Source: a virus
IMG/VR virus record: IMGVR_UViG_3300007539_000009
Location: 119,185 to 183,184 of that record
DNA length: 64,000 bases
Reading direction: 5' to 3' (one strand)
Shown: positions 6,001-63,450 of the stretch, in pieces
How positions within the stretch are numbered: the first letter of the stretch is position 1
How the letters are laid out: each line of letters starts with the position of its first letter
Translations under genes and position numbers: made by a program
Notes under the pieces: model-generated
What the model saw: only the letters and a program-made list of their open reading frames with translations
Told to the model about the DNA's origin: nothing
Database searches by the model: none

Positions 6001-6819
6001 TAGCAGCGACAGCGCGTTGAACGACTCCAGAAACAGCTGAGCATCGACCGGGTCGTAGGTGATCGCGGTGCCATCAACTTGCGGTGTGTAGCTGGTCGTA
6101 GTGCCGTTGCTCAGCCCCTGAACGATCTGCTGATCACGGAACGCGTAAACAGAGATGCGCTCAATCTCAGCCGCAGGCGTCCACTCCTGCGACGTGTTCT
6201 CGGTCGATTGCTGGGGCTGCTCGCCCGGTGCACCCGCTCCGAGGTTACCGCTGTTGTTGACGTTGGAGCTCGCACTGCCAACAAACTCCCCGGCCAGGAA
6301 CTTGGCGAACTTACCAACAGGGTTGCCGTTTGCGTCCACTGACGCATCGAACACCAACGTCGTGCCTTGAACTAGCTCTCCGCTATCCACCCACGGCTCG
6401 AGCGAGCACGTGTACACGTAAGTGGGCACCGCCCGTCCATCCAGCAGGACTTGTACCCGACCCTTGAGGGCGTGGTCAGGTATGCGAACGCGGTAGAGCT
6501 CGGTTACAGAGCTGTCCGCGTTGATGGTCTGATCAGCGACAGGCCAGTCCTGGAAAGTCTGCCAGTGAGCATGCGGTACCTGCAGAGACTGCCAGTTGCC
6601 AAGCTCCTGGAATACCAGAGGGTAAAACGTCTGGACAGGAACAGTCGACAGGTCACGCGCGGCATCAAGCTGAAACAGCTTCGCGTAGTCACTGTCTTGG
6701 GCGCGGATCCACGCCTCGTAAATCGCTGTGAGCTCGGGTCGATTCGCGTAGAAGTCGCGGTAGATCGACGGGAGGTAGTCGAACAGCGGGTTGGGATCGA
6801 AGGTCTTGTCGTCAGCCAC
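1..6819 (-). CDS. Giant tail/baseplate protein, C-terminus beyond window
   Basis: The reading frame is open from position 6819 to the left edge, giving at least 2273 codons with no stop, so the C-terminus is missing. I chose the GTG at 6819 because a TAA lies in frame just upstream (about 6846-6848) and an AGGTG precedes it. The N-terminus (DYLPSIYRDF) resembles the start of phage tail protein I-type baseplate proteins. Residues about 1316-1466 and 1530-1575 look like LamG/concanavalin-type carbohydrate-binding folds (for example AVYHFWRGWG). Residues about 2093-2170 look like an IPT/TIG immunoglobulin-like domain (SISLFGSGFD). The protein probably sits at the baseplate or tail tip and contacts the host surface. 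It is transcribed after the baseplate J-like gene. The fold assignments come from pattern recognition by eye. Confidence 0.82.
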   Translation of the reverse strand, partial: MADDKTFDPNPLFDYLPSIYRDFYANRPELTAIYEAWIRAQDSDYAKLFQLDAARDLSTVPVQTFYPLVFQELGNWQSLQVPHAHWQTFQDWPVADQTINADSSVTELYRVRIPDHALKGRVQVLLDGRAVPTYVYTCSLEPWVDSGELVQGTTLVFDASVDANGNPVGKFAKFLAGEFVGSASSNVNNSGNLGAGAPGEQPQQSTENTSQEWTPAAEIERISVYAFRDQQIVQGLSNGTTTSYTPQVDGTAITYDPVDAQLFLESFNALSLLDIDYSDPTAPIITQKPLGGIGAGNLLQLRLSDDTLLFKELPAAGQTLTLSVTSGVTVVAADVRVGFRLGAEFVNVTATELSLLGGNSFHGGARVRIKDARGVQTVEVSKPTRKIQLERTVDPDQVEVLYLGTNILNPSLTATTLGFDRAPNNGVTFKLVAPIVEAHSHASYREVLDEATDTVAVPITRPFALDAADEPKEQFPIQVFVDDTEFDYDSTLVEPASYTFTDSRTIQFAEVLPVGAIVDIYYVDQETQDNHRHIFGEITIPPTILEQFTVKLDDSFDRDKYPVQIFRDGFVFTDPEEFTIVSDQFVQFDNALTPGLTVTINAAIDSKAYLHSLPVRVDIDYGYRGQITNVAIIRDGVTQWDTELNGPAGDFDLVVQEDETLLYADVRLEEGWFFETDVDEQTIAQVWGEPIDLVRDSSAEYRGLTASLYAAYRGASTKSAIQNYGSILLGSAFLDQAGTAAGIVDTTTGQGLTVQPSDGTATFVVPLLPEQPLRVLRAPQEMSKFYAVNDLVTVYDRDELADVGLLAFFAEQFSDDYQFAKRLDVRTPSNFTSTVATFNNATGLLTDFSVNFFEQEVWAGDLIKLGITSFATLEQAQQSAFLPTNTGAVDVTHLSYDSTVTAGFPAGSLSITTASVPPFVIENLLDSPSGFSTLLGLVNAPLAWQNELDEAFAVDNSSPTGSGSLITCVWPTGKAAPSSPDLSPVVGAVQVQEVAAQSYLTLPSSAAATQYGRVVEVVDAHTLRVTFDSETIGAFPIGYGDGQYGQYGYGGGILAPSVTEYTVWARQTRTLDQFLYLDEALDPTQAQAVGENIQLLNTQLANVFKHHVFAVKLRWGLATEQAQLEDVAVFLDRIRPAETQPIVFTEAFEDEVADNSALADTTTATLVEGSPSLSLQSDNPLANTLLAGESFIAQAEFNDQTDSDGWLYTPYLYSFGPEVASQLTEPPATLAPGVHYLVGDDQFLNQSSVFARRYSEKRGLGNLAVRYESPSNYWIADSGQGYRTGKAIELTGDRRLQVANTGVTNALLPAANTLDYSSGSEFAFRTWLKINSGSYVGGETPVIFSYGPITLGLNVLEEGVVRPYFEVGASGLFVSPDPGSPGSYVFPNPFFSPNDPEYSPEEPDPFGDGTAIITPASTTYTLPVNEWFEITAQYRDLGNRYRTEIVVNGELWGVGSPSPDTPVADLTVNDVTGEDLWIGGVASGSPVFSVGGAIQQPSITLTNAFNPEALETSFSIPRPIHNIGVEATTGSPLVTDGLTAVYHFWRGWGLTIPDYSGNGFSATKVGSGLTEDWRVDGIVQDLWPREYDVHTVDREGIVLLQGAKVAIGDINDAVVFNEDFDIEGPGAETEITGQFIAGAVTYVAPDYWLTYSGLKGWQRLNGGAKAVEASIDLDNSDHYDGFLQPTDPDPDGVSHSTLASDQTLVGARATLTFEAEFGGAISDLTWDGVNVLNSLTKARGAQYGFSGVDRTGSYLVNEGGNLLQVYTQPSDTPLVFSQFGEKAARTDVYMPYLVPFSYQGASLTISAARVDKHVEVDYLGNPSIIRVRGTITPELTNRDGSARSQLSMALTDEFVRAYTYFPVVGDDGPTEVGFSAANQLVFPSDLPGGMILSNQTGTRAVGICALDKVISSSVRSTLILPPLGQLNPVGQKYGQFNALLLMQELLADGVSTAGYTVERFICVGSFAEVAVAFSQLVTGESVIIDPPDPPPISLSVDQQPQSSLNENQTFTVAVSVQTNEGTIDADYEDSGVPIVAQLAPTSFDGVLSGTTSKLTTGGLAIFDDLRIDEGGAYEVRFTSGVLTEDSAAITVNNPVPTLLSITPSTGSTASPPSSISLFGSGFDESARVIVNGTTPIPGTYQSPTLFIASPDPALLSTAGTYVFSILNFAPGGGQSGGVAYISVSPSSASPSPATSPLAADTLESDLTALVVLPEVGNNQGFRITSQLIDSDFEGQAVLDSQATGSITLSIASTTSNGGTFESGSEVFKSTTNG

Positions 6820-6941
6820 GGAGCACCTGGACGGCGGTAAACGTCTTTCCCATTGTTAGCTAAAGCTGTCTGTAGAAGCAGCGAGGCGGCCCATAACTTG
6901 AGCCGCCTGCACACTACTAGATGGTGGTGGGGATCACCAGC

Positions 6942-8942
6942 TCAGACCTTGGTGATACTGAGATCGGTATCGGCAGCCCAGACTTGGCCCGGATCGAGAG
7001 CCAAGCGGTCTTCTGATTCGGCGAAGACGAACGATCCAGCGCCTGTGTCGTATCGAGACCGCAAAGTCACAGGCATCGTTACGTCCTGCACATTGAACAG
7101 TGCAAGAACAGTGACCAGCTCGTTGACTGTCACTGCCTCTCCAAAGGGCTTGCCGTTGATGTACTCAGTGATGATGTCACGAACGCTCTGCAACGTGGCA
7201 TCACCGGAGAACGTCAGTTCAACATCAAGGATGACGGTAACTGGCGTCTTGACTTGGATGTCTTTGGTGATGTCCCGGTTATCGGCGTTGTCTAGGAACG
7301 CCTCAATCAGCGGGATGTCCGGGCTGGTGAGGTACGTGACCTTGATCCGGGTACCGATGAACATCGGGATCTCTGCAAGCACGTTGCCGAGGCCGTCTAG
7401 CACCGGCTCAGAGCCGTAAATCCTTAGAACATCAGAGGTTGCGGTTGTAAATCGACCACGAACCTCCTGCCGCACCAGGGCGTAGTGCGTGTCAGGCTCG
7501 AGCTCGCGGATGACGATGTCCTCGTCAACTGCGTCCACCTGCTCAACACGCACGATGGCCTGCACCGGCTCCTGGAACCCGGTGCCGTCCTCGAAGAGGT
7601 TGACGCCGGCTGAGTTGACGAACGTAGATGTCAACGGCACTTCGCTGACATCTACATCTGCGTCGGTGGAAGCGGGCGGCAAGCTGGAGATGACAACTTC
7701 AGCCGGAGTGACGGCGGACGACTCCACGTACACGTCGACCTTGCCGCCAATGTGGAACTGGTTGGTGTTGTAGAAACCGAACAGCTGGTAGGGGTTGTCT
7801 GCTAGGTTGGTGGCCACGTTGACCGTAGACGTGTCCTTGAACGGCCGATCGATGCGGGCCACCTTGACCGGATCTCCTCCCGGAGCAACCGGTACTTCCT
7901 CTACTCGAGCAATCTTGTAGTCGTTGTTGACGAAGTCAGGGTCGTCCTCGTTCAGCAAGCGCAACCGAAAGTTCTGTTGTACAGACACTTGCTCGAACGT
8001 GACGCCATCCTGTGTTACCTGCAGCGCGTTGTAATTGAGACCCAGCAGGTCATACACCGCACCCACAAACCCACCTACCGGCGCTGTAATCGGGTCTCCA
8101 TTGGTGTCTGTCCACTGCACGTTGCCATCAGCGTCTAGCGGCAGGTTGACCTTCTGGCAGAACGACTGGCTAAACAGCGGCTGGTCAGCCAGAGCTATCT
8201 GCGCAACGTCGCGAGTCATCAGCGGGTCGCCGAAGCCTTGGACCGACACACGCTTCACAGTCGGGAACTGGGCCAAGATCGCTGACTCAATAGCCACCGC
8301 TTTGACCAGGTCACGGTTGGTGACTGACGTCTTGATGCGAGCAAAGAGCTCAGCGTTACCTTCCGGGTTGGCCGCACCGAAGTAGGCCAGGGGATTGAAG
8401 GTGCGGAGCGCGCCAGGCACCCCTGTGACCCCAGTGACTGCGCCAGCCGCTGCCAGGTACTCATCACCGACGTCCTCGGCGATGGTGTTCACATCAACGA
8501 AAAACTCACCAGTACTGGCGATCGTGTTCGCAGCGACCGCAGCTGAGCTGAAGGTTTGACGAGAAATCGGCCGAAATCTGCGGCCGGCATCGTCTGTGAA
8601 CACTACGTTGGTCGTAACTTCCACAGCCTGTGTTGTGGCGAACACGATCCGTTGAGATCCCGTAGCTTTCTCGCCTTGGCGACGATCCACCAAGAAGTTG
8701 GCCGCGAGCCGGTCGAGCTCCTCAGGGAGCATGCCCGCGTAGTTGGCCAACGACTGGTTTCGTTGGATGACCCTCGTCTGGTCTCGGAACCGCTGGAACA
8801 ACAGCGAAGCCGGCGTGATGAGGATGTCATGAACGGCAGAACCAGCGCCGACATTGAGCTTAGGTGCCTGCTCCCGCAGGACTTGTCGGACGAGGGCCTC
8901 GACGGGCACACTGAACCGGTTCTTATCGTTGATCGTCGCCAT
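6942..8942 (-). CDS. Baseplate J-like protein
   Basis: This 666-residue protein begins MATINDKNRF and has an N-terminal region typical of baseplate J/gp6-type wedge proteins (SAVHDILITPASLLFQRFRD), followed by the characteristic VVFTDDAGRRFRPI and NPEGNAELFARI segments. Proteins of this family build the wedges of contractile-tail baseplates, which points to a myovirus. The gene begins at a divergent junction with the plus-strand gene at 9010 and is followed downstream by the giant tail protein, a common baseplate gene order. It is longer than P2 gpJ and has a beta-rich C-terminal half. Confidence 0.8.
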   Translation of the reverse strand: MATINDKNRFSVPVEALVRQVLREQAPKLNVGAGSAVHDILITPASLLFQRFRDQTRVIQRNQSLANYAGMLPEELDRLAANFLVDRRQGEKATGSQRIVFATTQAVEVTTNVVFTDDAGRRFRPISRQTFSSAAVAANTIASTGEFFVDVNTIAEDVGDEYLAAAGAVTGVTGVPGALRTFNPLAYFGAANPEGNAELFARIKTSVTNRDLVKAVAIESAILAQFPTVKRVSVQGFGDPLMTRDVAQIALADQPLFSQSFCQKVNLPLDADGNVQWTDTNGDPITAPVGGFVGAVYDLLGLNYNALQVTQDGVTFEQVSVQQNFRLRLLNEDDPDFVNNDYKIARVEEVPVAPGGDPVKVARIDRPFKDTSTVNVATNLADNPYQLFGFYNTNQFHIGGKVDVYVESSAVTPAEVVISSLPPASTDADVDVSEVPLTSTFVNSAGVNLFEDGTGFQEPVQAIVRVEQVDAVDEDIVIRELEPDTHYALVRQEVRGRFTTATSDVLRIYGSEPVLDGLGNVLAEIPMFIGTRIKVTYLTSPDIPLIEAFLDNADNRDITKDIQVKTPVTVILDVELTFSGDATLQSVRDIITEYINGKPFGEAVTVNELVTVLALFNVQDVTMPVTLRSRYDTGAGSFVFAESEDRLALDPGQVWAADTDLSITKV

Positions 8943-10996: not shown

Positions 10997-11069
10997 GCCG
11001 GCGTAGCTCAATTGGTAGAGCTCCTGACTTGTAATCAGGTGGTTGCAGGTTCAAATCCTGTCGCCGGCT
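10997..11069 (+). tRNA. tRNA-Thr (TGT)
   Basis: A cloverleaf can be drawn: acceptor GCCGGCG pairs with CGCCGGC, anticodon stem CCTGA/TCAGG with loop CTTGTAA, so the anticodon is TGT. The T-loop is TTCAAAT. Unlike the other tRNA genes here, CCA is not encoded. Confidence 0.92.
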
Positions 11070-11371
11070 CCGTGCACGTGTGCGGTCAGTCCAACTGCGC
11101 ACGCAGCTGTCCTTAGGGGGATGTTCCGGCTTATCCCTTGGGATGATGTTGTTAGCTGTCGGGTCGCCGGAAGACCCGTCCATACTCTTCTGCTCGTGAC
11201 GTATCGACTAGACGGCAGAACGGTCCGGGTGGCGCCGACTAAATTTGCTACCAGCGGGTGTCGATTCCCTGCTGGCGGGAGAATGCGCAGAACTTGTGCT
11301 TGGATCGGGCACAAGGGAGCACTCCCAAGTACGATCCAGGGAGTGGCGGCGCGTCCGTCACTCCTTTTACT
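11070..11371 (+). other. Spacer between tRNA-Thr and tRNA-Asn, no gene seen
   Basis: I see no convincing coding region here. The stretch has several short inverted repeats: CGGGTC with GACCCG, CACTCCC with GGGAGTG, and CCAGC..GCTGG around a T-arm-like core near 11258-11278. The last could be a tRNA remnant, but no acceptor or anticodon stem could be built around it. Confidence 0.4.
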
Positions 11372-11448
11372 TCCCCCGTAGCTCAGCTGGTTAGAGCGTC
11401 CGCCTGTTAAGCGGAATGTCGTAGGTTCAAGTCCTACCGGGGGAGCCA
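11372..11448 (+). tRNA. tRNA-Asn (GTT), first copy
   Basis: Acceptor TCCCCCG pairs with CGGGGGA. The anticodon stem TCCGC/GCGGA encloses CTGTTAA, anticodon GTT. CCA is encoded. The 3' half is identical to that of the second tRNA-Asn at 12032-12108. Confidence 0.95.
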
Positions 11449-11452
11449 CCAC

Positions 11453-11539
11453 GGAGGCGTGGCAGAGCGGCCGAATGCACCGGTTTTGAAAATCGGCGAC
11501 TGTAATGGTCCGGGGGTTCGAATCCCTCCGCCTCCGCCA
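11453..11539 (+). tRNA. tRNA-Ser (TGA)
   Basis: Acceptor GGAGGCG pairs with CGCCTCC. The anticodon stem CCGGT/ATCGG encloses TTTGAAA, anticodon TGA. A long variable arm is present, as expected for a class II tRNA. CCA is encoded. Confidence 0.95.
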
Positions 11540-11603
11540 TCTCTAGGAGTAAACATGGGTGCAAAGGTAGTGCATTTCTGGCTCCCTCGCACCTACCACA
11601 CCC

Positions 11604-11679
11604 GGGCGATTAACTCAGTTGGTAGAGTGCTTCCCTTACAAGGAAGAAGTCGGCGGTTCGAGTCCGCCATCGCCCACCA
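11604..11679 (+). tRNA. tRNA-Val (TAC)
   Basis: Acceptor GGGCGAT pairs with ATCGCCC. The anticodon stem CTTCC/GGAAG encloses CTTACAA, anticodon TAC. CCA is encoded. Confidence 0.95.
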
Positions 11680-11874
11680 TGCACCGACACGTTCAACTGG
11701 TAAGCCGCAAGAGCCGGAACGTGTTGCGCAGTAAGGCTCCAGGGTCCTTCGGTACCCGTCATGCCGCCCGGTGCAGGGGCGGTGGAGTCTCCCTCCTTTC
11801 TCTTGCTTCGGCAAGTCGAACGCCGTACAGCCGCTGACCTGTATGTATCTGCGGAAGTCAGCACCCTCATCTCC
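11680..11874 (+). other. Structured spacer between tRNA-Val and tRNA-Met
   Basis: This 195-base gap carries no credible gene but is dense in inverted repeats: ACACGTTC with GAACGTGT (about 11690-11726), GGGTCC-TTCG-GGTACCC-like, CCGCCC with GGGGCGG, and GCTGAC with GTCAGC near the end. It could be a small structured RNA transcribed with the tRNAs; no known RNA family is recognised. Confidence 0.35.
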
Positions 11875-11951
11875 GGGCCGGTAGCTCAGTCGGTTAGAGC
11901 AGGCGACTCATAATCGCTCGGTCCCCAGTTCAAGTCTGGGCCGGCCCACCA
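11875..11951 (+). tRNA. tRNA-Met (CAT)
   Basis: Acceptor GGGCCGG pairs with CCGGCCC. The anticodon loop CTCATAA gives CAT. The body resembles elongator tRNA-Met, but a lysidine-modified Ile tRNA cannot be excluded from sequence alone. CCA is encoded. Confidence 0.92.
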
Positions 11952-11953
11952 CC

Positions 11954-12030
11954 GGGTACATAGCTCAGTCGCATAGAGCGGCTGCCTTCTAAGCAGCATG
12001 TCGCAGGTTCGAGCCCTGCCGCACTCACCA
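11954..12030 (+). tRNA. tRNA-Arg (TCT), imperfect acceptor stem
   Basis: The anticodon stem GCTGC/GCAGC encloses CTTCTAA, anticodon TCT, and the T-arm (GCAGG..CCTGC) is perfect. The acceptor stem GGGTACA against CGCACTC has two A-C mismatches (5:68 and 7:66) and one G-T pair. CCA is encoded. It may be decaying, or it may need repair or editing to work. Confidence 0.8.
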
Positions 12031-12031
12031 C

Positions 12032-12108
12032 TCCCCGGCAGCTCAGTTGGTCAGAGCGTCGGATTGTTAATCCGAATGTCGTAGGTTCAAGTCCTACCGG
12101 GGGAGCCA
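12032..12108 (+). tRNA. tRNA-Asn (GTT), second copy
   Basis: Acceptor TCCCCGG against CGGGGGA has one G-G mismatch at the sixth pair. The anticodon loop TTGTTAA gives GTT. The 3' half, from the variable region through CCA, is identical to the first tRNA-Asn, while the 5' half differs. This suggests recombination or partial duplication. Confidence 0.9.
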
Positions 12109-12114
12109 CCCAAC

Positions 12115-12199
12115 GATCCTGTGGCGAAATAGGTAGACGCGGCGGACTTAAAATCCGCAGCCTTCGGGCGTGGGGGTTCGAGTCCCCCCAGGATCACCA
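12115..12199 (+). tRNA. tRNA-Leu (TAA)
   Basis: Acceptor GATCCTG pairs with CAGGATC. The anticodon stem GCGGA/TCCGC encloses CTTAAAA, anticodon TAA. A long variable arm is present and CCA is encoded. A TTCTTTTTT run directly after it may end the tRNA transcript. Confidence 0.95.
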
Positions 12200-12218: not shown

Positions 12219-13445
12219 TCACCGAGCCTCACGCCAGGTAATCGACCCCTCGATGTCCTGGTTCGTCCCGAGCGGACGAGCGCACAGCACGATCTCGTCG
12301 GGCGTCCCGTCGATCGCCGAGCCCAACCGGATAGCGCTCTGGAGCACCGCGACAGCACCGGCCGACGCTGACCCACTAGCTCCCGCAATGAACCCTCCGT
12401 CGAGCACCGTGCCCCCCGTGACCGTGTTCGCCGTCGCACCCGTCGCCGTCTGCGCTGCGCTGTTCGCCACATCGCCGTAGGTGAAGGTTCCAGCCACGGT
12501 CGGATTCAGGATCAGGAGCCACTCGAAGTCGCCGCCCGTCTGGTCGATGATCGACGTGCGCGCAAGGTCCACCGTCGAGTCGAGCTGCCCGGACTTCAGC
12601 CGGATGCCGACGATCGCGTACACCGTGTTCGCCGCGTTGGCATCGACGTGCGTACCGCTCGTGCTCGCGTAGTGCAGCGTGCCCGTGTCCTGACGCCCGC
12701 CCTCGCTCACTACGGAGGAGCAGATGTGCTCCAGCGTCGAGGCCGCGCCCGTCCCGTCGTTCTCGATCTCGTAGCGCACCGGCAGGTTCGGCGTGCTCAT
12801 GTAGACCTGCGACAGGTTGTTCGCGTTGTTGACCTGATGAACGTAGTGGATCACGCCATCGATCATGAAGCCGAAGCGGACCGCACCGACGCCGAGCCAC
12901 TCGAAGTCGATGATCAGGATCTGCGCCTTCGTGAAGTCGATCACCATACCGGACGGGCCGGTACCATCCAGCGGGTCGATGTTCCACGACGCCTGCGCGA
13001 CCACCGTATCCACCGCCGAGCCCGACGAGAACGTCCGAACGCCGACGCCGTACGTGCCCTCGGCGTCCTCCAGGAACAGGCCGTTGTCGTCGTCGAAGTA
13101 CCCGACCCGGCGAGTGATGCCGGTCCCGCCGCCCGACTTGTCCAGCACGAACGTCGCGAAGATGAGCTGCGACTTACCAGGCTGGTAGTTGAAGCGAATG
13201 AACGTCTGACGCACGCGCACGCCTGCGGTCGTCGTTCCGACGCCGATGGTCGTGCTCGCCGTGTTCGCTCCGTGCGACGAAGATGTCCCCGACCCGCTCG
13301 TCTCCTGATCGTCCCAGAACAGCGCCTGCGAGTCGTGAATCTGCTTCGAGTCGAAGACCGTGTACGGCTCAGATACTCGAAGCCGGGCGAAAGCGTCTAG
13401 CTGGTCAGAGGTAATGGCAGCTTCAATCGACTTCAGGTATGTCAT
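12219..13445 (-). CDS. Beta-rich virion protein
   Basis: A protein of 408 residues beginning MTYLKSIEAA. The segment FARLRVSEPYTVFDSKQ, with the later FGFMIDGVIHYVH and TLEHICSSVVSEGG, resembles a widespread family of uncharacterised phage structural proteins with a jelly-roll-like body. The ATG at 13445 gives a four-base ATGA overlap with the gene upstream in transcription; a longer GTG start at 13454 is possible. Codon third positions are far richer in G/C than in the neighbouring fibre genes, which suggests a separate origin. It probably decorates the tail or capsid. Confidence 0.75.
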   Translation of the reverse strand: MTYLKSIEAAITSDQLDAFARLRVSEPYTVFDSKQIHDSQALFWDDQETSGSGTSSSHGANTASTTIGVGTTTAGVRVRQTFIRFNYQPGKSQLIFATFVLDKSGGGTGITRRVGYFDDDNGLFLEDAEGTYGVGVRTFSSGSAVDTVVAQASWNIDPLDGTGPSGMVIDFTKAQILIIDFEWLGVGAVRFGFMIDGVIHYVHQVNNANNLSQVYMSTPNLPVRYEIENDGTGAASTLEHICSSVVSEGGRQDTGTLHYASTSGTHVDANAANTVYAIVGIRLKSGQLDSTVDLARTSIIDQTGGDFEWLLILNPTVAGTFTYGDVANSAAQTATGATANTVTGGTVLDGGFIAGASGSASAGAVAVLQSAIRLGSAIDGTPDEIVLCARPLGTNQDIEGSITWREAR

Positions 13446-14656
13446 TTCACCCACCAGGTGGTCTTGGCCGCGTCGCAGCGGACGGTCAGGTTGTCTCCGC
13501 CTGTAGTCAGCTCAGTCGACGTTACGAAGTCGATCAACTCCGGGCTGGAGTCGACCTGAACTGTGATCGAGTTCCCGCTTTGATCGATCTTCTTGATGTC
13601 TACCACCCAGCCATCCGATGTGGCAGTAGGGGGCAGTGTCACAACCACCGGAGAAGGCGAGGCGTACACGGTGTACATACCAGGCTGGTCAACCGTGAAG
13701 CTGGATGTCCTGTCGTACAGACCACCTACCGCTGATGATGCGAGTAGGCCGAGCGTCACCCACCCGGTGTCTGCAGCGTTGCGCTGACGCAGCTGGCCGG
13801 AAGCAGTGTCTGCCCACAGCACGTACGGTCCCAGCGCGGGCGATGCCGCTGCGATCACGTACGTAGGACTAGTCGGACTTAGCGGTGCTGAGCCAGGCGG
13901 AAGGTCGGGCGACTGCAGGTATGTGGACAGCTGCGCATCAAGCGACGCCTGCGTCACGTACGTACCACCGGGACTAAACCCGATCGGACTCGTGAAGATC
14001 AGCGCAGCTTTCTCAATCGTCAGCAGCGTCTCAGTCCGCACCACGCCAGACAGATCTCTGGAGGTGATAGCCAGGCCCGGCTCGCGGTTCGCGTAATCAA
14101 AGTACGGAGACGGGCCTGGACGGCTGAACAGCTTTGCGTACCCAACCTCTGACGGAGGCCACAGCGCGGCGGTGTCGCTAATGTAGTTGGCCGGGCTTGT
14201 ACCGGGGCTCGCGGTAGTGCGGCCCATAGGCACTTGCAGGTAGTAGGCTTCAATGCCTGCAGGGCCAGTCAGAACTGCGCTGTTCGATACGGGGTCGAAG
14301 CCTTGCGAGCCTCGGCTCTGGCGCAGCGTGAAGTGGCCGTAGTCTTGGTTGAACGGGTTGTCAGGCACCCACCAGATCGAACCAGTGGGCGCCGACGGTC
14401 CGCCCCAGAAGCCTGCGCCGGCTGTGAGATCACCGACACCTTCAGCACCAAACAGAGCAAGTGCGGCGATCGAGGAGCTCGAATCAAAGCGGCCGGGCGT
14501 GCTCGGTGCTTCTGAGGTCCGATCTGTCTCCGTGCCTTCTGTGAACGTCTTCTGCCCAAGCACCACCTGGGCGATGGTCCCTCCCCCAGGTGCTGTTGTT
14601 TTACGCAGCAGAAGCTCGTTTGCTACGTCCGCAACTTGCTTGAGCGTTAACTGCAT
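13442..14656 (-). CDS. Tail fibre-like protein
   Basis: A 404-residue protein with an N-terminal helix (MQLTLKQVADVANELLLRK), a Gly/Ser/Pro-rich beta-type body and a C-terminal module containing DFVTSTELTTGG. A very similar segment (DFVTSTSFTTGG) occurs near the N-terminus of the 1200-residue fibre at 15243-18845, so the two share a module. It overlaps its neighbours by one to four bases on both sides, within the fibre operon 12219-18845. Confidence 0.7.
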   Translation of the reverse strand: MQLTLKQVADVANELLLRKTTAPGGGTIAQVVLGQKTFTEGTETDRTSEAPSTPGRFDSSSSIAALALFGAEGVGDLTAGAGFWGGPSAPTGSIWWVPDNPFNQDYGHFTLRQSRGSQGFDPVSNSAVLTGPAGIEAYYLQVPMGRTTASPGTSPANYISDTAALWPPSEVGYAKLFSRPGPSPYFDYANREPGLAITSRDLSGVVRTETLLTIEKAALIFTSPIGFSPGGTYVTQASLDAQLSTYLQSPDLPPGSAPLSPTSPTYVIAAASPALGPYVLWADTASGQLRQRNAADTGWVTLGLLASSAVGGLYDRTSSFTVDQPGMYTVYASPSPVVVTLPPTATSDGWVVDIKKIDQSGNSITVQVDSSPELIDFVTSTELTTGGDNLTVRCDAAKTTWWVK

Positions 14657-56064: not shown

Positions 56065-56096
56065 GTCATAAGTCTAATGTCGCGGTGCTCTTACCT
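56065..56096 (+). promoter_or_regulatory. Candidate phage promoter, copy B (RT operon)
   Basis: GTCATAAGT (56065-56073), 16 bases, then CTTACCT (56090-56096), 14 bases before the ATG at 56111. It matches copy A at 41923-41953 and lies in the divergent gap between the tail genes and the RT operon. Confidence 0.5.
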
Positions 56097-56110
56097 CACA
56101 CCGTGACCCC

Positions 56111-56479
56111 ATGCCTATGAGCAAAGCGACTGCATTGCTGAACCAGTATCCGTGGATCCCAGCCGTAGGGCTGGCTGTTGCCTTCCTGGTAAAGGAGTTT
56201 CTGAAAACCGAGGACCTCAGTGAAAGCATCTCACGCACCGGGCTGAAAGTCCAGTGGTGTGATTGCTTGATGCAAGTACAGGACGCAACCGAGAGCCAGC
56301 TAGACGCTGTGCTCGGGATCATCGACCGGAGTGGCCGGGCTCTTCCTGAGGGGAGCCTCGAGGCCAAGCGTCGGCGAGCCGAGTCACGTCTGATCGGGCT
56401 ACTCAAGCGACTGTACGAACCCACCCTGGACCGAACGGCCATCAACAACCTGGCCTCCATGCTTCTGAAGTTGCAATGA
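56111..56479 (+). CDS. Small membrane-anchored protein, first gene of the RT operon
   Basis: A protein of 122 residues with one N-terminal membrane-type segment (YPWIPAVGLAVAFLVKEFL, residues about 13-31) and a helical, charged body (ESQLDAVLGIIDRSGRALPE; RRRAESRLIGLLKRLYEPTL). ATG 56117 is an alternative start. It is 39 bases from the reverse transcriptase gene and downstream of the candidate promoter, so it is probably co-transcribed. No family is recognised. Confidence 0.65.
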   Translation: MPMSKATALLNQYPWIPAVGLAVAFLVKEFLKTEDLSESISRTGLKVQWCDCLMQVQDATESQLDAVLGIIDRSGRALPEGSLEAKRRRAESRLIGLLKRLYEPTLDRTAINNLASMLLKLQ

Positions 56480-56518
56480 TCTTTCTCGATTTCTTAGCAA
56501 GCCTGATCAACTGACATC

Positions 56519-57610
56519 ATGACCACCGCACGCACACGGGCGAGTCAGGCGGTGACAGTACCCACGGAGGAAGGGCGAGCCTCCCGGGTACTGGAACTCC
56601 TGAACCAAGGGCAAGCGGACGAGGGCATGTACCGGACGCACACGATCCCCAAGGTCGATAGCGCGGGTCGCGTTGTAGGTAAGCGCAAGCTGATCATACC
56701 TAACGACGACCTGAAAGCTGCGCAGAACGTGATCCTCGATGAGCTCTATGGCTCGTCGATCGGCGCCAGTCCGTACTCCCACGCGTTCCACCGAAACCGG
56801 TCAATCATGACGATGGCCAAACCACACGTAGGCAACAACTACGCGCTGACCATCGACATCAAAGACTACTTCCCTTCTGTGACACCAGAAACGGTGATCG
56901 CTGAGCTGGAGGAGGCGGAGGTGAATGCGGCACTAATCAGCCGTGTTCGCAGACTCTGCTTTTACCGAGGCGGTCTACCGCAAGGCGCCCCTACATCTCC
57001 ATTCCTGTCAAATGTTGCCGGCAACAAGATCGACTACGCGGTCGCATCGTTTGTGCAGAAGTGGCGCGTGGGTCTAATCCGGGAAGACCACAGAGGCAAC
57101 AGGACCTCTCAGGTACAGCAGCGACCTTACGGTCTCATCTACACCCGGTACGCCGACGATCTTGCGTTCTCTGCGCCGTACAAAAAGGTGTGGCAACTTA
57201 AGTTCGCAATCACTCGCATCCTCGAAGGACTGGGATACAAGGTGAATCCTCGCAAGATCACCGAGCACAAGAAGGGATCTCAGATCAAAGTCTGCGGGCT
57301 CGTTGTAAATGAGGTACTCAACGCGCCACGTAAACGCCGACGAGGACTGCGCGGTCTGATGCACCGTGCTATCTGCGATCGAGCCAAAGGACGCACGGAG
57401 CCTGGGTTCGTCACTACTCGGGACGGACACATTAGGGCTATCGACTTCATGCAGTTACGAGGCGAGATCTCGTTCTGCCTAAGCGCTAACGACCGGCACC
57501 GGGACGAACTCCTGGGCCTTTTTCATGTCATGCATGACGTTCACACTCTTCCGCAAGAGCTGTGGTCACCTGCAACAAATCAATACGTGAGTCAACATGC
57601 CCAACACTGA
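56519..57610 (+). CDS. Retron-like reverse transcriptase
   Basis: A protein of 363 residues. The RT motifs are in order: RKLIIPNDDLKAAQ (57-69), motif A LTIDIKDYFPS with Asp113, motif B GGLPQGAPTSP (151-161), the catalytic YADD at 211-214, and a thumb-side motif KVCGLVVNE (257-265). Two retron hallmarks are present in altered form: the NAxxH motif appears as MAKPH (99-103), and the VTG motif appears as VCG (258-260). No maturase, endonuclease or DGR-type motif is seen. The 3' end overlaps the E2-like gene by 14 bases. No structured RNA fits into the 39 bases upstream; four hairpin units lie 4 kb downstream. Confidence 0.88.
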   Translation: MTTARTRASQAVTVPTEEGRASRVLELLNQGQADEGMYRTHTIPKVDSAGRVVGKRKLIIPNDDLKAAQNVILDELYGSSIGASPYSHAFHRNRSIMTMAKPHVGNNYALTIDIKDYFPSVTPETVIAELEEAEVNAALISRVRRLCFYRGGLPQGAPTSPFLSNVAGNKIDYAVASFVQKWRVGLIREDHRGNRTSQVQQRPYGLIYTRYADDLAFSAPYKKVWQLKFAITRILEGLGYKVNPRKITEHKKGSQIKVCGLVVNEVLNAPRKRRRGLRGLMHRAICDRAKGRTEPGFVTTRDGHIRAIDFMQLRGEISFCLSANDRHRDELLGLFHVMHDVHTLPQELWSPATNQYVSQHAQH

Positions 57611-58481
57611 CCTGATTACTGGACTCTCTGAAGGCGAGCAGATCGTCATCAACACAGACGGCACTGCTTCGCTCATCAAAGTGTCCGTCGTCAAGACAAG
57701 CGACCTGGGCGCTGTTACCGGTGCGCTGCATACCGGTGATGTCGCTACTGGGGTGCTGCCTTACGGTTGCATCTACCGCACATCCTACCAGGGATCAACT
57801 GTGTACTTCATGGCGATCCCTCCGACAATCGACCACGTCACACACGAGAAGGCTACATACACCACTGAGCGGGGGGACCCGTTCCACCGCATTCAGTTCC
57901 GCATCGCAATGCCGTGGCGCGTAATGGCTATCGGCGTCAACGCTCGCGGCAACATAGTGGACGCGCATACGTGGATCACGAAGGAGAAACCGCAACCGTC
58001 GTCAACGCTGTACCACCCGACCGTGCCTAACCGGTACAACAACGGCAACGGCTGCCTGGGTAGCCAACTGCTGTCACTGATCAATCAAGATGCCAGTCTC
58101 GATCAGCTGGCTCGTGTGGAACGAGTGGTCGACGACATGCAGCGTGTCGATTACACCGACCACATGGATTACTGGCGCAATCACTTCCCGCAGGAACTTC
58201 AGGATGTGGAGGTGCCGACAGAAGCAGCGCTGCTCCCTGACGGTCTGCCACGTCTGAGGAGCCGCAACGTTCAGCCGCCGATCCCTGAACAAGAGTATGA
58301 CGAGATGAACCGCGACGTTCGGCGGCTGGTGAAGTGGCACCTGTGGACGCACGCGCGACCGACCAGCTGGATGAGCGAGATTCAGCAACTGTCGTGGCAG
58401 CAAATGACACCGCAAACAACGAAACCTCTGCGAACTCTACAGGACGCACTTAACGGGAACCGAGATGGTCGAGGCTGGTAA
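57597..58481 (+). CDS. E2-like conjugating enzyme (PRTRC protein B-like)
   Basis: A protein of 294 residues. The segment FRIAMPWRVMAIGVNARGNI followed by STLYHPTVPNRYNNGNGCLG fits the prokaryotic E2 family found in PRTRC and Bil-type cassettes: a proline-rich flap, then T-x-LY-x-x-P-N-x-x-x-x-G-x-x-C-L-G. Cys153 is the predicted thioester cysteine and His140 lies before it. The C-terminal 140 residues are helical and unassigned. Its start overlaps the RT stop by 14 bases and its stop shares a base with the next ATG (TAATG), so the genes are translationally coupled. Confidence 0.75.
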   Translation: MPNTDLITGLSEGEQIVINTDGTASLIKVSVVKTSDLGAVTGALHTGDVATGVLPYGCIYRTSYQGSTVYFMAIPPTIDHVTHEKATYTTERGDPFHRIQFRIAMPWRVMAIGVNARGNIVDAHTWITKEKPQPSSTLYHPTVPNRYNNGNGCLGSQLLSLINQDASLDQLARVERVVDDMQRVDYTDHMDYWRNHFPQELQDVEVPTEAALLPDGLPRLRSRNVQPPIPEQEYDEMNRDVRRLVKWHLWTHARPTSWMSEIQQLSWQQMTPQTTKPLRTLQDALNGNRDGRGW

Positions 58482-58972
58482 TGACAGATCCTAGCTTCTC
58501 TGTGTGGCAAACCGCACTGAACGCAGCGCCGGCGGTCCGCAGCCGCTCAGCCTTGGAAAGGCATCAATCGCACGTATTCGACACGATCTTGGATAACTCT
58601 GTTACTCCGGATCAAATCGACGCAGCAGCAGTGCGCGGCATCAGGAGCGAGGTCCTCCACTACGGACTGGCGAACCGCATGGTCGAGCGCCGAAACTCGT
58701 ACGCCAGAACGCTACAAGCAGTGCAGTCGGCTCCTGATGCTGACCACGAGAAACGAACTCTTCTACAACAACTGATCGAACTGACCCCTGATACCAATGA
58801 CATCGAACAACGAGCAACAGCCCTCCGAGATGAACTTGCGGCTCGACTCGCAAGGCAAGCTACTGAAGAAGGTGGAGCTGGGGACGATGGCGAAGGCGTG
58901 GATGCCGGTGATCGACCGGAAGTCGGTGCCGGAGCTGGAGCTGACGGAGCCGCAGTTCCAACTGACGGATGA
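58481..58972 (+). CDS. Unknown protein between E2-like and JAB-like genes
   Basis: A protein of 163 residues. The first 130 are helical and charged (ALERHQSHVFDTILDNSVTP; RNSYARTLQAVQSAPDADHE), and the last 35 are Gly/Asp/Ala-rich low complexity. Its last 176 bases overlap the start of the JAB-like gene, an unusually long overlap, and in that stretch the JAB frame shows the stronger G/C third-position signal. It could be a partner of the E2-like protein; no family is recognised. Confidence 0.55.
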   Translation: MTDPSFSVWQTALNAAPAVRSRSALERHQSHVFDTILDNSVTPDQIDAAAVRGIRSEVLHYGLANRMVERRNSYARTLQAVQSAPDADHEKRTLLQQLIELTPDTNDIEQRATALRDELAARLARQATEEGGAGDDGEGVDAGDRPEVGAGAGADGAAVPTDG

Positions 58973-59986
58973 CTTCCCCCGCCTGAGCAGGTACGACCTC
59001 GACCTCACGATCCAGTACTACGCCCGAGTCTACGACCTGTACAAGACCGAGGCAGCGCTGCTCTACCACTACGAGGACAGCGAAGAGAAGTACTACACAC
59101 TCTCTCCTCCGTGGTACGCAGCCAACGGCGGACATGTCGAGTACGCCGGCATGTTTCACTGCTTCTGCCCCAGCTGCCAGATCCTGCAGACACAGCAAGT
59201 GGATACGTGCCCTGTGTGTGGAGGAACTGACATGCGAAAGTTCCAGTACATGGGGCAGTCGCACTCGCACGGCTCTGGGGGTGCCTTCACATCGGGCGAC
59301 GATGACGCCAACGAGGAAGTGATCAGCGGCTTCAAGTTCACTGTCGGCAAGGTCGACAAGCTGGCCGCCGAGATCTACCCCTCGTTCGTGATCGCAGTCG
59401 ACGGGTTCGTCAACAAGGAGCGCAGAGGTAAGCGCTTCCTGACTCGTCTCGACGAACTGGTGGACATGGGTTTTCCCGAGGGGCTGCAGCTCCAAGTTCG
59501 GCACTGGCTGCTGAACGTTGCAGCCCCGGAGAAGGCACGAGTGATGCGTCACATGACAGTGGTGGATCACCCGACGTTCGGGGGCGGGATGGACGCGATC
59601 CAGTTCATGTCCCCAGAGCCGGAGAAAGCGGCCCGATACTGCGAGCTGACCAAGGTGGATCCGAAGCTGATCATGTCGTCTACCCAGTGGGTAGATGCAC
59701 TTACGAAGCGGAAAGCGGAGGCCGCGAAGCAGTCGAACCACAGGTGGACTTCTGGATCGAACAAGTTGGTCGCCTCGACTTCGGTACCTTCAAAGCCTGG
59801 ACCCAACTCAAAGGCAAGCGTCCCCTCTACCCCGCCAAAGAAGCCGACGACATCAAGCGAGTTCGTCTGGGATCAACCCAACGAAGCATACAACCCGTTC
59901 ACAGGAAAAAGCAACAAGACTGGGGCGCTCAAGCGTTCAAATCAATCCGGGAGGCCATCGATGCCTTCCGACGACGTCAATCGTAA
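58797..59986 (+). CDS. JAB/JAMM isopeptidase-like protein with zinc ribbon (PRTRC protein A-like)
   Basis: The frame from ATG 58797 holds a perfect JAMM signature, H156-x-H158-x7-S166-x2-D169 (SHSHGSGGAFTSGDDD), with TEAALLYHYED upstream as a possible catalytic Glu region. Just before it is a zinc ribbon, Cys124-x2-Cys127 and Cys138-x2-Cys141. Such peptidases remove or mature ubiquitin-like proteins. This frame stays open to 60614, but after about 59735 it becomes Ser/Pro/Thr-rich while the -1 frame (59687-59986) reads like a true protein end (WGAQAFKSIREAIDAFRRRQ, stop 59986). I therefore place the end at 59986, with an inferred frame change; the alternative is one 605-residue fusion. Confidence 0.75.
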
Positions 59987-60614
59987 CAGGATCCTTGTTG
60001 GCGTAATCGAATCGTGGCCTGTCTACGCGGACACGTCACACGGGTTCAACGCTGATACGTCACTGCTGGATCTAGTGCTTCAAGACGACCGCGATACGAA
60101 CTACCACACAGCACAAGAACTGGTAGAAGTACTGCTTAACGTCGCCGCTTTCTGTACGTGGTCCATCGTCGAGATGACTGATGAAGACGGAGACGGCAAC
60201 GACATGGCAGACGCAATGATGGATTGTGACTCGATCATCGATCCTATCGCACAAGCGTATGGCGTGAACACGTACGAGATCGCAGATGGTGTCGAAGAGC
60301 TGGTGTTCGCCACGCTCGACTGCATGGAGGCTGATTACGCTGAAGGTCGGCTTCTGGGTCTGCTAATTCTACTCTCCGAAGCGTTGGCACACCTGTGCGA
60401 GCCGATCGACAACGGAGAAGGGCCCAAGCCTGGGTCTGCGGACTATGCAACTGCTGTAGAAAAAAGCGTCATAAGTAACACGCTGCCTCTGCTTAACACA
60501 CTCGCCAGCAACGTGCTTTTCGATATTGCATACATCGTTGAGCGCATGTACTCAGAAGGGATTCAATGCAGAACTTCGCAATCGTCGGTTGCGGGGGCAC
60601 CGGCTACTACCTGA
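59961..60614 (+). CDS. Acidic helical protein of unknown function
   Basis: A protein of 217 residues beginning MPSDDVNRNRILVGV. A GGGAGG ribosome site stands just before the ATG at 59961, which supports a separate gene rather than the tail of the JAB frame with which it is in phase. The protein is acidic and helical (TAQELVEVLLNVAAFCTWSI; GVEELVFATLDCMEADYAEG). The last 49 bases overlap the E1-like gene. No family is recognised; PRTRC cassettes contain extra unknown proteins in similar positions. Confidence 0.6.
   Translation: MPSDDVNRNRILVGVIESWPVYADTSHGFNADTSLLDLVLQDDRDTNYHTAQELVEVLLNVAAFCTWSIVEMTDEDGDGNDMADAMMDCDSIIDPIAQAYGVNTYEIADGVEELVFATLDCMEADYAEGRLLGLLILLSEALAHLCEPIDNGEGPKPGSADYATAVEKSVISNTLPLLNTLASNVLFDIAYIVERMYSEGIQCRTSQSSVAGAPATT
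60468..60495 (+). promoter_or_regulatory. Candidate phage promoter, copy C (inside gene, before E1)
   Basis: GTCATAAGT (60468-60476), 15 bases, then CTTAACA. The first nine bases are identical to copies A and B and the second block shares CTTA. It would allow E1 and the ubiquitin-like gene to be transcribed separately. Confidence 0.35.
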
Positions 60615-61303
60615 TCGAGCCCCTCGCAAAGTACTTGGCCATCCGGCACCCTGGATGCAACCTGTACTTGATCGACGGTGACGACGTGGAGAAGTCCAAC
60701 GTCGAACGTGCTTTCACCGAAGAGCACGTGAACCAGAAGAAAGCAGATGTTCTGCAACACAGGTTCGCGCAGACAGGCATGAACGTGCTATCTGTGCCGC
60801 ACTTCGTGAAGCCGGGCAAGCTGTGGCGAACCCACCACCAAGACTCGTGGTACCAAGACGGTCTGACGCTGTTCGCGGCGGTGGATAACCGAAAGACTCG
60901 CAAGTTCCTTCAGGACAAGGCAAGCGAGCTCAACAACGTGACGTACGTGGACGGCGGCAACGGCGCCCCGTACGATGCAAACGTCCTGATGTACGTACGG
61001 AGAAACGGTGTAGACCTGACACCACCGATCCATCACATCTACCCGTACATCGCCCACGAGGACGAAGAAGACTTCTTCCCCGGCGAAGAGAACTGTGGAG
61101 CACGGAGAGAGCGCATCCCGCAGGTCGGGTTGGTCAACGACCACCTGGCTTCGATGATGACGTGGCTCTGGCTGTCGCAGATCGATGAGCCGGAAAAGAA
61201 CGGTGGTTTGGATGGCCGGGACATCCTGAATCACTTGGAAATGGAGACGCTGGCTTGCACAGTCGCAGCGACTCCGAACCCCGGACTGGTACGTACCAAC
61301 TAA
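60566..61303 (+). CDS. E1/ThiF-like adenylating enzyme (PRTRC ThiF-like)
   Basis: A protein of 245 residues. The ATP-binding signature is FAIVGCGGTGYYL (G8-x-G10-G11-x-G13), followed by LYLIDGDDVEKSNVERAF (Asp37, Asn45, Arg48), Lys58/Lys59 and AAVDNRKTRKF (Asp107). YVDGGNGAPYDANVLMYV and NCGARRERIPQ, with Cys177 as a possible thioester cysteine, match the PRTRC-type ThiF layout. It would adenylate the C-terminus of the ubiquitin-like protein encoded next and pass it to the E2. AGAAGGG precedes the ATG. Confidence 0.85.
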   Translation: MQNFAIVGCGGTGYYLIEPLAKYLAIRHPGCNLYLIDGDDVEKSNVERAFTEEHVNQKKADVLQHRFAQTGMNVLSVPHFVKPGKLWRTHHQDSWYQDGLTLFAAVDNRKTRKFLQDKASELNNVTYVDGGNGAPYDANVLMYVRRNGVDLTPPIHHIYPYIAHEDEEDFFPGEENCGARRERIPQVGLVNDHLASMMTWLWLSQIDEPEKNGGLDGRDILNHLEMETLACTVAATPNPGLVRTN

Positions 61304-61328
61304 CCAACAACACGACTGAGGAATAGAT

Positions 61329-61772
61329 ATGCCCCAAGGCAACAACCCCGCTTTCACCAACGACGGCCGCCGCATCGACTGGACCCCGAACAACACGGGA
61401 CAGCCGGCGGCTGGCTACGACGTGCACTTCACGCAGCTGACCGGGAACGACCTTCCCGCGCCGGTTGCGGCGGCTCCGGCTCCGTTTCCGGCGGCAGCGC
61501 CCGCTGCTGCTGCGGTTCCGGCTGCTCCGGCCGGTGACACGGCATCCGTGACCAAGGCGGGCACCGCTCGCTGGGACCAGCACCCCACCATCCAGGTGGC
61601 CGCCGGTACCACGGTGAACGATGCCATCCGTCAGTACCGCGAGACCGGTACGCAGCTGGAGAAGACGGTTCACGGCGCGCTGGACACCGGCGTGTACGTC
61701 GACCCGAACTACGCCCTGCAGGCCGGTGACGTGCTGCTGATCCAGCCCGTGCACAAGTCGCAGTCCAACTGA
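61329..61772 (+). CDS. Ubiquitin-like (beta-grasp) protein
   Basis: A protein of 147 residues with a good ribosome site (GAGGAA). Residues 1-42 are a Gly/Asn/Pro-rich N-terminus, 43-70 an Ala/Pro linker, and about 76-141 a ThiS/MoaD-like domain: TIQVAAGTTVNDAIRQY, then TVHGALDTGVYVDP and YALQAGDVLLIQPV, the last being the L-x-x-GD-x-x-x-x-x-P strand of these folds. It ends HKSQSN and lacks a terminal Gly-Gly, so either a tail is trimmed or another terminus is used. Position directly after the E1-like gene supports the call. Confidence 0.62.
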   Translation: MPQGNNPAFTNDGRRIDWTPNNTGQPAAGYDVHFTQLTGNDLPAPVAAAPAPFPAAAPAAAAVPAAPAGDTASVTKAGTARWDQHPTIQVAAGTTVNDAIRQYRETGTQLEKTVHGALDTGVYVDPNYALQAGDVLLIQPVHKSQSN

Positions 61773-61862
61773 GGAAACTCAGTACACCGTAGTCGCATAG
61801 CGACTCGACATGTCCGTTGATTAGCTTGTGGTTTAGGTCAGCTTGGACACCTGACTCAAGAT

Positions 61863-62042
61863 CGGCGGTAGCGCCGTTCGAGGTGTGCGTACCAGCCCCA
61901 CCACCCCAAGTCTAGGGCTTCCTCGTGCACAGTTTCAGTACCGGTGAATTAATCCGGTCGTTCCTCACGGGCGCCTCTGCAGAGGCTGCTCGGAACTTCG
62001 GCTTAATACACCAGTACTGAAAACTGTGCACGAGAAGCTCCT
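61863..62042 (+). ncRNA. Hairpin unit 1 (retron msr-msd-like layout)
   Basis: CGGCG-GTAG-CGCCG, a linker with GGT..ACC, then a 129-nt hairpin. Its base pairs CTCGTGCACAGTTT with AAACTGTGCACGAG, then GGTG..CACC, TTAA..TTAA and GTTCC..GGAAC, with the palindrome GCCTCTGCAGAGGC at the tip (61973-61986). The strand is assumed from the genes upstream. Confidence 0.6.
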
Positions 62043-62135
62043 CTCCAGCACAAGCAGCAACTCTCCAAGCACTTCAATCTCATACTCGCCCGTGGTCGAC
62101 TGGAAGACCGAAGGCCAAGGCCCGAAAGTCGCAGG

Positions 62136-62309
62136 TGTCGGTAGCGACATCGCTGGCGTAACGCTAGTCCATGACTTCCCCTCCCACGTCATGCAGGTCT
62201 TCGCAATTAGGCAAGGGTTCGTCTGGCGGCAAGTAGAAACTGGCCCAGTTTCTACTTCCCACCCGAGACGACTCACCCCCGCCATAATTACCAAGACCGT
62301 GCAGACATG
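62136..62309 (+). ncRNA. Hairpin unit 2
   Basis: TGTCG-GTAG-CGACA, a linker with GCG-TAA-CGC, then a 120-nt hairpin from CATG to CATG whose apical part is a perfect 13-bp repeat, AAGTAGAAACTGG with CCAGTTTCTACTT (62231-62257). Bases in the first stem differ from units 1, 3 and 4 on both sides, so pairing is kept while sequence changes. Confidence 0.6.
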
Positions 62310-62426
62310 AGAGCAGCACGAGCAGTACACCTACCAAACCAAACGCAAGTAGTTCTTATCAGTCCCTGTTGGTGAATGTTGGACCGTATATGCGGTCTTA
62401 TGCTGTGATCCAAAAACACTGAGCAG

Positions 62427-62878
62427 CGGCGGTAGCGCCGTTGTTGAGACCAACACCAGCTGGCCCACACCAGCTCCACCCAGTGCGAGATGCCTACTGC
62501 ACCTAAGGCAACGCCGGATGATGACGACGCTGCGAACTATTGGATGCTCACAGCGCGCCTGCGTCATCCGGCGGGCACTCCCTCCGTCGGAGGCGTTGAC
62601 AAGGCTGTAGCGCGACGCGCGCGAAGTGAGCTCGAGACAATATCCAAAGTCGTGGCTAATGCCTCGAAACAGAACACGGAGATCGGCATAGCCGCAACTC
62701 GGATATCAACTCGAGCTCACCATCGCACACGACGCACACAACCTCGTCAATAACCCCCTCCGCCGGACTTCGTCACCCGACGGATGACGCAGAGCGCGCT
62801 GTGACACATCCAATAGTTCACGCTTACGTCATCATCTGTCGGCGTGTCCTTAGGTGCATCCGGCATGCTCGCACTGGG
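62427..62878 (+). ncRNA. Hairpin unit 3 (giant, 400-nt stem-loop)
   Basis: CGGCG-GTAG-CGCCG, a linker with GTTG-AGAC-CAAC, then arms of about 185 bases. The base is a perfect 11 bp, CCCAGTGCGAG (62479-62489) with CTCGCACTGGG (62868-62878). Further matches include TGCACCTAAGG with CCTTAGGTGCA, GAACTATTGGATG with CATCCAATAGTTC, and TGAGCTCGA with TCGAGCTCA. Pairing continues nearly to the apical loop at about 62664-62684. Confidence 0.65.
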
Positions 62879-62943
62879 ATTCGACTCCTCGTACCTGCGT
62901 TTGCCCCCTTCACAGAGCTAGTTAACAACTCCCTTGGAGTTGG

Positions 62944-63372
62944 CGGCGGTAGCGCCGTCGATAGGCATTGCCAGCGGCAGGGACACCAGATCCCCTACGC
63001 CGGACACGGTTGACCGTGGGTTTGACAAAACCGGATGCCGACTTCCGTACCGAAGACCAGGTGCCACCACGAGGTAAACTCTCCATCCGGACATCACTTC
63101 CGCATTCGTGCACGTGCACAGAAGTCGCCGACGGGGTCACTTGGCGACCACAGGTATTGGTTACGCAACACCCTAAAGACCATCACGATCAGGTACGGGT
63201 GTACGATACTCAACTACCTCAGGTAGCCAAAGACCTCGATCGGCGACAGCTGTACCCGCTGCCAAACGCGTTAGCAACGCCCGAAGGAGAACTCACCTCG
63301 AGGTAACACCCGGCCTCCGGCCTCCAGCCGACATCTGCCGGTTTGACAAACCCACGTCAACCTGTCCTGCGT
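62944..63372 (+). ncRNA. Hairpin unit 4 (giant, 376-nt stem-loop)
   Basis: CGGCG-GTAG-CGCCG, a linker with GGC-ATT-GCC, then arms of about 175 bases between ACGC at 62997 and GCGT at 63372. Matches include GGTTGAC..GTGGGTTTG near 63008 with its complement near 63341-63365, CGAGGT with ACCTCG, and GTCGCCGA with TCGGCGAC near the middle. The tip is at about 63172-63195. Confidence 0.65.
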
Positions 63373-63414
63373 CGGTTCTAGTAGCTCTGCCCAACCAAGG
63401 AGGCGTCCAGTAAC

Positions 63415-63450
63415 ATGGGCGCCTCCTACTACCTACAGCTATCACTTTAG
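63415..63450 (+). CDS. Eleven-residue leader peptide
   Basis: ATG at 63415 reads MGASYYLQLSL and stops with TAG directly before the ATG of the next gene (TAGATG). A strong ribosome site, AAGGAGG, stands at 63397-63403, while the next gene has none of its own, so its translation probably depends on the leader. The GGAGG lies in a hairpin (GGAGGCG 63399-63405 with CGCCTCC 63420-63426), which could control access. Confidence 0.6.
   Translation: MGASYYLQLSL

Follow-up and report, generated by a model that had tools for sequence, protein, structure and literature searches.

Does a phage locus that combines a reverse transcriptase (RT), a ubiquitin-like conjugation cassette and an array of structured RNA units represent one system, and if so, of which kind? 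The locus is located in the last 64 kb (bases 119185–183184; hereafter the window) of the 183,184-nt IMG/VR record IMGVR_UViG_3300007539_000009. Its genes, all on the plus strand, encode in this order a small membrane protein, the RT, an E2-like protein, a gap protein, a JAMM peptidase, an E1/ThiF enzyme and a beta-grasp ubiquitin-like protein (Ubl), with short overlaps, and are followed by four noncoding units (Table 1). An initial annotation, made from the sequence alone, had proposed that these elements form one system, perhaps producing several DNA products, and the genes were all recovered at the proposed places with the motifs named for them (RT YADD, E2-like Cys153, JAMM, E1/ThiF and beta-grasp). 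We conclude that the locus is probably a new type of retron, carried by a phage, with the conjugation cassette as its partner module. The noncoding units are best read as an array of several templates in a single phage lineage.

The RT belongs to the retron type

In profile searches, the RT matched the retron family NF038233 with an E-value of 1.7e-47 and PADLOC retron RT models with E-values down to 2e-50, while the match to the group II intron model was much weaker (4e-13). By its motifs and its placement in the retron clade, the enzyme is a retron-type RT and neither a group II intron nor a diversity-generating retroelement (DGR) enzyme, which bears out the retron-like character first ascribed to it. 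The score remained below the cut-off curated for the St85 model, indicating a divergent type, and several retron types were matched about equally.

Pairing of the RT with the cassette recurs in other phages

Relatives were collected from IMG/VR by three scans. The first was led by the RT alignment, and the best 80 of 273 confirmed loci were kept; the second, led by E1 and blind to the RT, yielded 39 loci, and the third, led by JAMM, yielded 20. Scans of IMG/VR for one protein at a time, using an RT or an E1 pattern, gave no matches, the patterns being too specific. A retron RT was located within 10 kb of the cassette in 12 of the 39 E1-selected loci, each with RT, E1, JAMM and E2; two of these, L111 and L119, are near-copies, and L120 and L125, with RT and E1 matches and no JAMM, were left out of the count. 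Among the best 80 RT-led loci, L038, L045, L049 and L073 carry both cassette and RT, in addition to L017 and L018. The RT-led (best 80 of 273) and E1-led scans had five contigs in common, where independence among 2.9 million contigs predicts approximately 0.004; the expected overlap stays below 1 even if only the largest hundredth of the contigs is counted.

RT and cassette are co-directional in every co-occurring case, and the reading frames overlap at their junction in the window, L017, L109, L073 and L127. The order RT-E2-JAMM-E1-Ubl occurs in the window, L017, L018, L049 and L109, the order RT-NAD ligase-E2-JAMM-E1-Ubl in L111, L114 and L117, and the order E2-JAMM-E1-RT in L045, L073, L121 and L127; in L038 the RT is located 3.4 kb after E1. 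The pairing thus recurs in unrelated viruses, on contigs of 34–58% G+C. Cassette-adjacent RTs cluster in the tree, with 5 label changes compared to a shuffled mean of 12.3. The window, L017 and L018 form one group and L049, L109, L111, L114 and L117 another, while L045, L073, L121 and L127 are placed elsewhere with weak support; a single origin of the cassette-adjacent RTs is possible.

The arrangement RT-E2-JAMM-E1 was also observed in the two best of 80 bacterial RT matches, a Planctomycetaceae metagenome-assembled genome (MAG; L136), in which a Ubl is present as well, and a Lentisphaerae MAG (L137). In the latter, the cassette stands among chromosomal genes approximately 1.4 kb from a 31-repeat CRISPR array, a neighbourhood that hints at defence. 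Mis-binning of contigs is possible.

Two genes accompany subsets of these loci. The NAD-dependent DNA ligase gene between RT and E2 in L111, L114 and L117 is located at about 5300–7500. A small protein of similar appearance and without a Pfam family is encoded directly 3' of the RT in L073 (8776–9156), L121 (11914–12255) and L045 (9075–9443).

The four noncoding units resemble retron RNAs

The array (61773–63450) fills the 1.68 kb between the Ubl gene and the next gene, and stop codons are frequent in all three plus-strand frames. Folding z-scores against dinucleotide shuffles were -6.9, -4.8, -16.3 and -9.3 for units 1 to 4, compared to -0.6 to -1.5 for coding controls. General minimum free energy windows failed to set the array apart, as dense coding regions scored equally; what distinguishes it are long inverted repeats together with the shuffle tests. 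Each unit contains one copy of CGGTAGCG (at 61866, 62139, 62430 and 62947). The short recognition-like stem CGGCG/CGCCG is present in three units and is represented in unit 2 by TGTCG/CGACA, corresponding to two compensatory changes. The pattern CGGCG-N(3-5)-CGCCG occurs three times in the 64 kb, every time inside the array. According to folding and repeat searches, units 1, 3 and 4 display the organization of a retron noncoding RNA (ncRNA), with a1/a2 ends, msr hairpins and an msd. Of the common architecture claimed for all four units, the structure and the CGGTAGCG hairpin held throughout, whereas clear a1/a2 ends were missing from unit 2. The msd-like long stems showed no similarity to one another or to any other part of the contig, and an Rfam search over the array gave no match. 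A donor or editing role for the long hairpins is unsupported, since they match nothing else in the contig.

The gene set and hairpin array, which the initial annotation had suggested seeking in other phages, were both found in the related phage L017. Its locus displays the same order of RT, E2, gap protein, JAMM, E1 and Ubl, followed by an array in which three or more units were recognized, the short stem CGGCG-CAT-CGCCG standing at 13616, 13869 and 14215; a possible fourth unit (13404–13570) is without this stem. The two arrays share no DNA similarity: the short stem is the same, the long hairpins are unrelated. In both phages, the cassette is enclosed between the RT and the RNA array.

Single retron-like RNAs were detected at three further loci: L109 (12110–12345; 16-bp a1/a2-like stem, z -8.8), L038 (9515–9700; UUU-loop hairpin after TTTTAGCC, z -8.5) and L076 (9620–9870; 46-bp perfect msd-like stem, z -17.6), the last of which holds a divergent set of Ubl, JAMM and E1. 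They look like classical retron RNAs and show that RNAs of this kind are kept by RTs of the association. So far, the window and L017 are the only loci with a clear multi-unit array. An AT-rich hairpin cluster 6 kb 3' of the RT-cassette locus in L127 (17664–18700) is perhaps another.

The conjugation cassette

The active-site residues expected of E1, E2 and JAMM are all in place. For E1, a ThiF match was obtained (E = 4.6e-13), and the nucleotide-site residues and Cys177 are invariant across relatives; in the JAMM motif, both His, the Ser and the Asp are invariant in 10 relatives. The E2-like call proved weak for the window protein alone (Pfam E = 0.056), and comparison of its model with the PDB by Foldseek gave no fold match. 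Cys153 and Asn145 are unchanged in 21 relatives, and the homologue in L038 matches Pfam E2_D (E = 2e-5). The E2 assignment is thus based on the family, by way of the L038 homologue, together with the invariance of the Asn and the Cys, rather than on structural similarity. An AlphaFold2 (AF2) model of the Ubl-like protein (pLDDT 68) matched SUMO, MoaD, SAMP1 and TtuB folds in Foldseek (probability ~1, E ~0.02), by which we assign a beta-grasp fold with moderate confidence. Phage proteins encoded in L038 (412–1044), L009 (733–1440) and L010 (2394–3185) consist of Ubl-like repeats in tandem, each ending with a glycine motif, as in polyubiquitin.

Does the locus act as one system?

Several observations weigh against a coupled system. 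No RT is present in 18 of the 20 JAMM-led loci, and the two RT-bearing ones were already known; RT-less phage cassettes are thus common, and the cassette is able to work by itself. Among the relatives, L018 is the third closest; it has the genes, but the array search there was negative and no convincing RNA was found. A scan with the sigma-70 consensus found no promoter. The main internal difficulty is the window Ubl, which ends in ...VHKSQSN and lacks a C-terminal glycine, whereas endings such as KERG and KDRG occur in relatives, and a terminal glycine is present in L017, L018, L117, L121 and others. Either the tail evolves rapidly, or the protein is used without conjugation, or it is defective. 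L017 and L018 would be better experimental models than the window phage.

Such findings could also be explained by two independent modules lying in a common accessory region: one would be a standard phage retron with additional RNAs, the other a cassette of the PRTRC kind that modifies virion or host proteins, the two being functionally uncoupled. Bacillus phage KLEB27-3 and Vibrio phage D69 are examples of a cassette that occurs without an RT, and the majority of retron RTs have no cassette. The annotation 'structural protein' is given in Salmonella phage Arash (L216 3499–4539) to the E1 homologue and to genes beside it, a hint that virions may contain Ubl enzymes. Independence nevertheless has to accommodate an adjacency that recurs, with overlapping frames, in three or more gene orders, on contigs of widely differing G+C content and in two bacterial MAGs, as well as the enclosure of the cassette by RT and array in the window and L017; we consider it rather unlikely. 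The RT-cassette pairing is recurrent but optional. The claim of a single system thus stood as far as one cluster and a fixed, overlapping order in many phages are concerned, and was qualified by the separability of the partners; where these co-occur, their arrangement is ordered and not a random combination.

The strand on which the units fold bears on whether they are templates at all. In the long stems of the window and L017, mismatches on the plus (RNA) strand comprise 61 A.C and 14 G.T (p = 4e-8, positions counted as independent). A.C and G.T arise equally by transition from normal pairs, and the excess of A.C therefore suggests that the minus strand has been kept foldable, either as cDNA copied from plus-strand RNA or as a structured RNA of minus-strand origin. 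Folding with DNA parameters showed the minus (cDNA) strand to be the more stable in 5 of 5 long stems tested. Every long stem folding better on the minus strand, as expected of a minus-strand RNA with G.U pairs, would suit units that are minus-strand structured RNAs or DNA-level sites for packaging, replication or protein binding. This is improbable, since the canonical order of a1, small hairpins, long hairpin and a2 runs along the plus strand in the direction of the RT gene, and since the classical-looking units of L109, L038 and L076 show the same slight strand asymmetry. Moreover, the common stem is confined to the units, and both phages have it together with the RT system. The order of the units and the direction of the genes favour a cDNA of plus-strand RNA.

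Three sites are strongly avoided in the whole contig: AGGCCT (1 found, 34 expected), AAGCTT (2, 34) and CCGCGG (4, 42), which hint at host restriction enzymes. Hairpin DNAs of ~200 bp would presumably be targets of nucleases and DNA-binding proteins, but that they serve as decoys for host restriction enzymes is unsupported and highly implausible, as the palindromic sites of the stems differ from the avoided ones and none of the three occurs in them.

For the retron with a conjugation partner, we propose the following sequence of events. The whole cluster would be transcribed together. The RT would bind the short hairpin of each unit, prime near the a1/a2 junction and copy the msd part into branched single-stranded DNA folding as a long duplex hairpin, so that one RT would give four DNAs. 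The short stem common to four window and three L017 units and the A.C/G.T asymmetry indirectly support this step, and with it the several DNA products suggested at the outset. By analogy with known retrons, in which msDNA particles hold effectors, the RT-RNA-DNA particles may retain or direct the E1-E2-JAMM-Ubl cascade. When a rival phage infects or a host enzyme attacks, the DNA could change and the tagging of a target protein be altered, with a putative role in phage competition or counter-defence. The cassette and the small membrane protein are candidate effectors by their position; small proteins of similar layout and not alignable in sequence are also encoded 5' of the RT in L017, L018 and L136. 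It is possible, and we put it forward tentatively, that one RT makes different long hairpin DNAs as sensors or scaffolds that direct Ubl-like protein tagging, with DNA synthesis controlling conjugation, and that phages use this against rivals or host defences and some bacteria as a defence.

If true, the pairing of a retron with Ubl conjugation would connect DNA made by an RT with the tagging of proteins. One RT serving four templates with hairpins of up to ~400 nt would extend retron output and offer a lead for DNA production tools, and the recurrent phage loci make the role of phage-encoded Ubl cassettes directly testable.

Table 1. Features of the RT-cassette-array locus (positions in the window).
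Feature	Position	Strand	Remarks
Small protein	56111..56479	+	122 aa, one hydrophobic segment; directly 5' of RT
Retron-type reverse transcriptase	56519..57610	+	motifs YADD, QGAPTSP, MAKPH; VCG replaces VTG
E2-like protein, prokaryotic E2 family D type	57597..58481	+	Cys153, Asn145 invariant; start overlaps RT by 14 nt
Gap protein, function not assigned	58481..58972	+	sole homologue is the L017 protein at the equivalent place
JAMM/JAB peptidase	58797..60614	+	zinc-ribbon-like insert, long C-terminal extension; start possibly 58830
E1-like (ThiF) enzyme	60566..61303	+	GxGGxG, invariant Cys177
Beta-grasp Ubl-like protein (C-terminal domain)	61329..61772	+	AF2 model and Foldseek
ncRNA unit 1	61816..62061	+	a1 61816-61830, a2 62049-62061; recognition-like hairpin 61863-61876; msd-like stem 61914-62042 (129 nt)
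ncRNA unit 2	62065..62325	+	recognition-like hairpin ~62136-62149, covarying stem TGTCG/CGACA; msd-like stem 62181-62313 (133 nt); no clear a1/a2
ncRNA unit 3	62340..62903	+	a1 62340-62351, a2 62892-62903; hairpin 62427-62440; msd-like stem 62479-62878 (400 nt)
ncRNA unit 4	62913..63391	+	a1 62913-62921, a2 63378-63389; hairpin 62944-62957; msd-like stem 62976-63391 (416 nt), base competes with a2
G+C-rich 12-bp hairpin ending the array	63398..63427	+	terminator-like, without a T run

Relation to known systems

With retrons, taken here as the types modelled in PADLOC and the NCBIfam St85-family RT, the locus shares the RT family and motifs, a1/a2-like ends, small hairpins, a long msd-like hairpin and partner genes in the cluster. 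It differs in that the partner is an E1-E2-JAMM-Ubl cassette, that arrays comprise 3–4 RNA units with msd-like stems of up to 416 nt, and that these units are located 3' of the cassette, 4 kb from the RT. The retron effectors known to us, toxins or enzymes, target nucleic acids, NAD or membranes.

Among conjugation cassettes, the window E1 is closest to the PRTRC family TIGR03736, the order E2-JAMM-E1 is the same, and the poly-Ubl of related phage cassettes ends in glycine. In contrast to PRTRC, the window Ubl is at the 3' end, and RT and RNA array are added. The E1 scored below the PRTRC ThiF family cut-off (46.8 compared to 144.75 bits), and no match to PRTRC ParB was found in the 183-kb record, which is possibly incomplete; by these comparisons the cassette is not a PRTRC system proper. 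Bil and other bacterial Ubl-conjugation anti-phage systems likewise hold E1, E2, JAMM and Ubl in one cluster, and one of the bacterial RT-cassette loci found here adjoins a CRISPR array. To our knowledge, no RT or template RNA occurs in these systems. Of the PADLOC E1-E2 models, the ThiF domain alone matched the window, and weakly.

The initial annotation knew of no retron with a ubiquitin-like system, and we found no description of this combination in the literature searched (retron-ubiquitin, PRTRC-phage and jumbo-phage retrons), the coverage of which excluded subscription papers and most preprints. Reverse transcriptase goes unmentioned in a 2006 survey of E1/E2/JAB neighbourhoods in prokaryotes (PMC1779556), and a 2025 retron study mentions neither ubiquitin nor tandem or multiple ncRNAs (PMC12548924).

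The phage and its setting

The contig encodes a DnaB helicase, a DNA polymerase and a terminase of the tailed-phage type. The terminases of the closest cultured phages are less than 30% identical to that of the contig, indicating a new phage lineage. Approximately 550 nt separate the end of the array from the end of the contig. Eight tRNA genes are clustered at 10997–12199 of the window. At L003, two phage proteins (6315–7823 and 10011–11537) have lysine-rich N-termini resembling histone tails.

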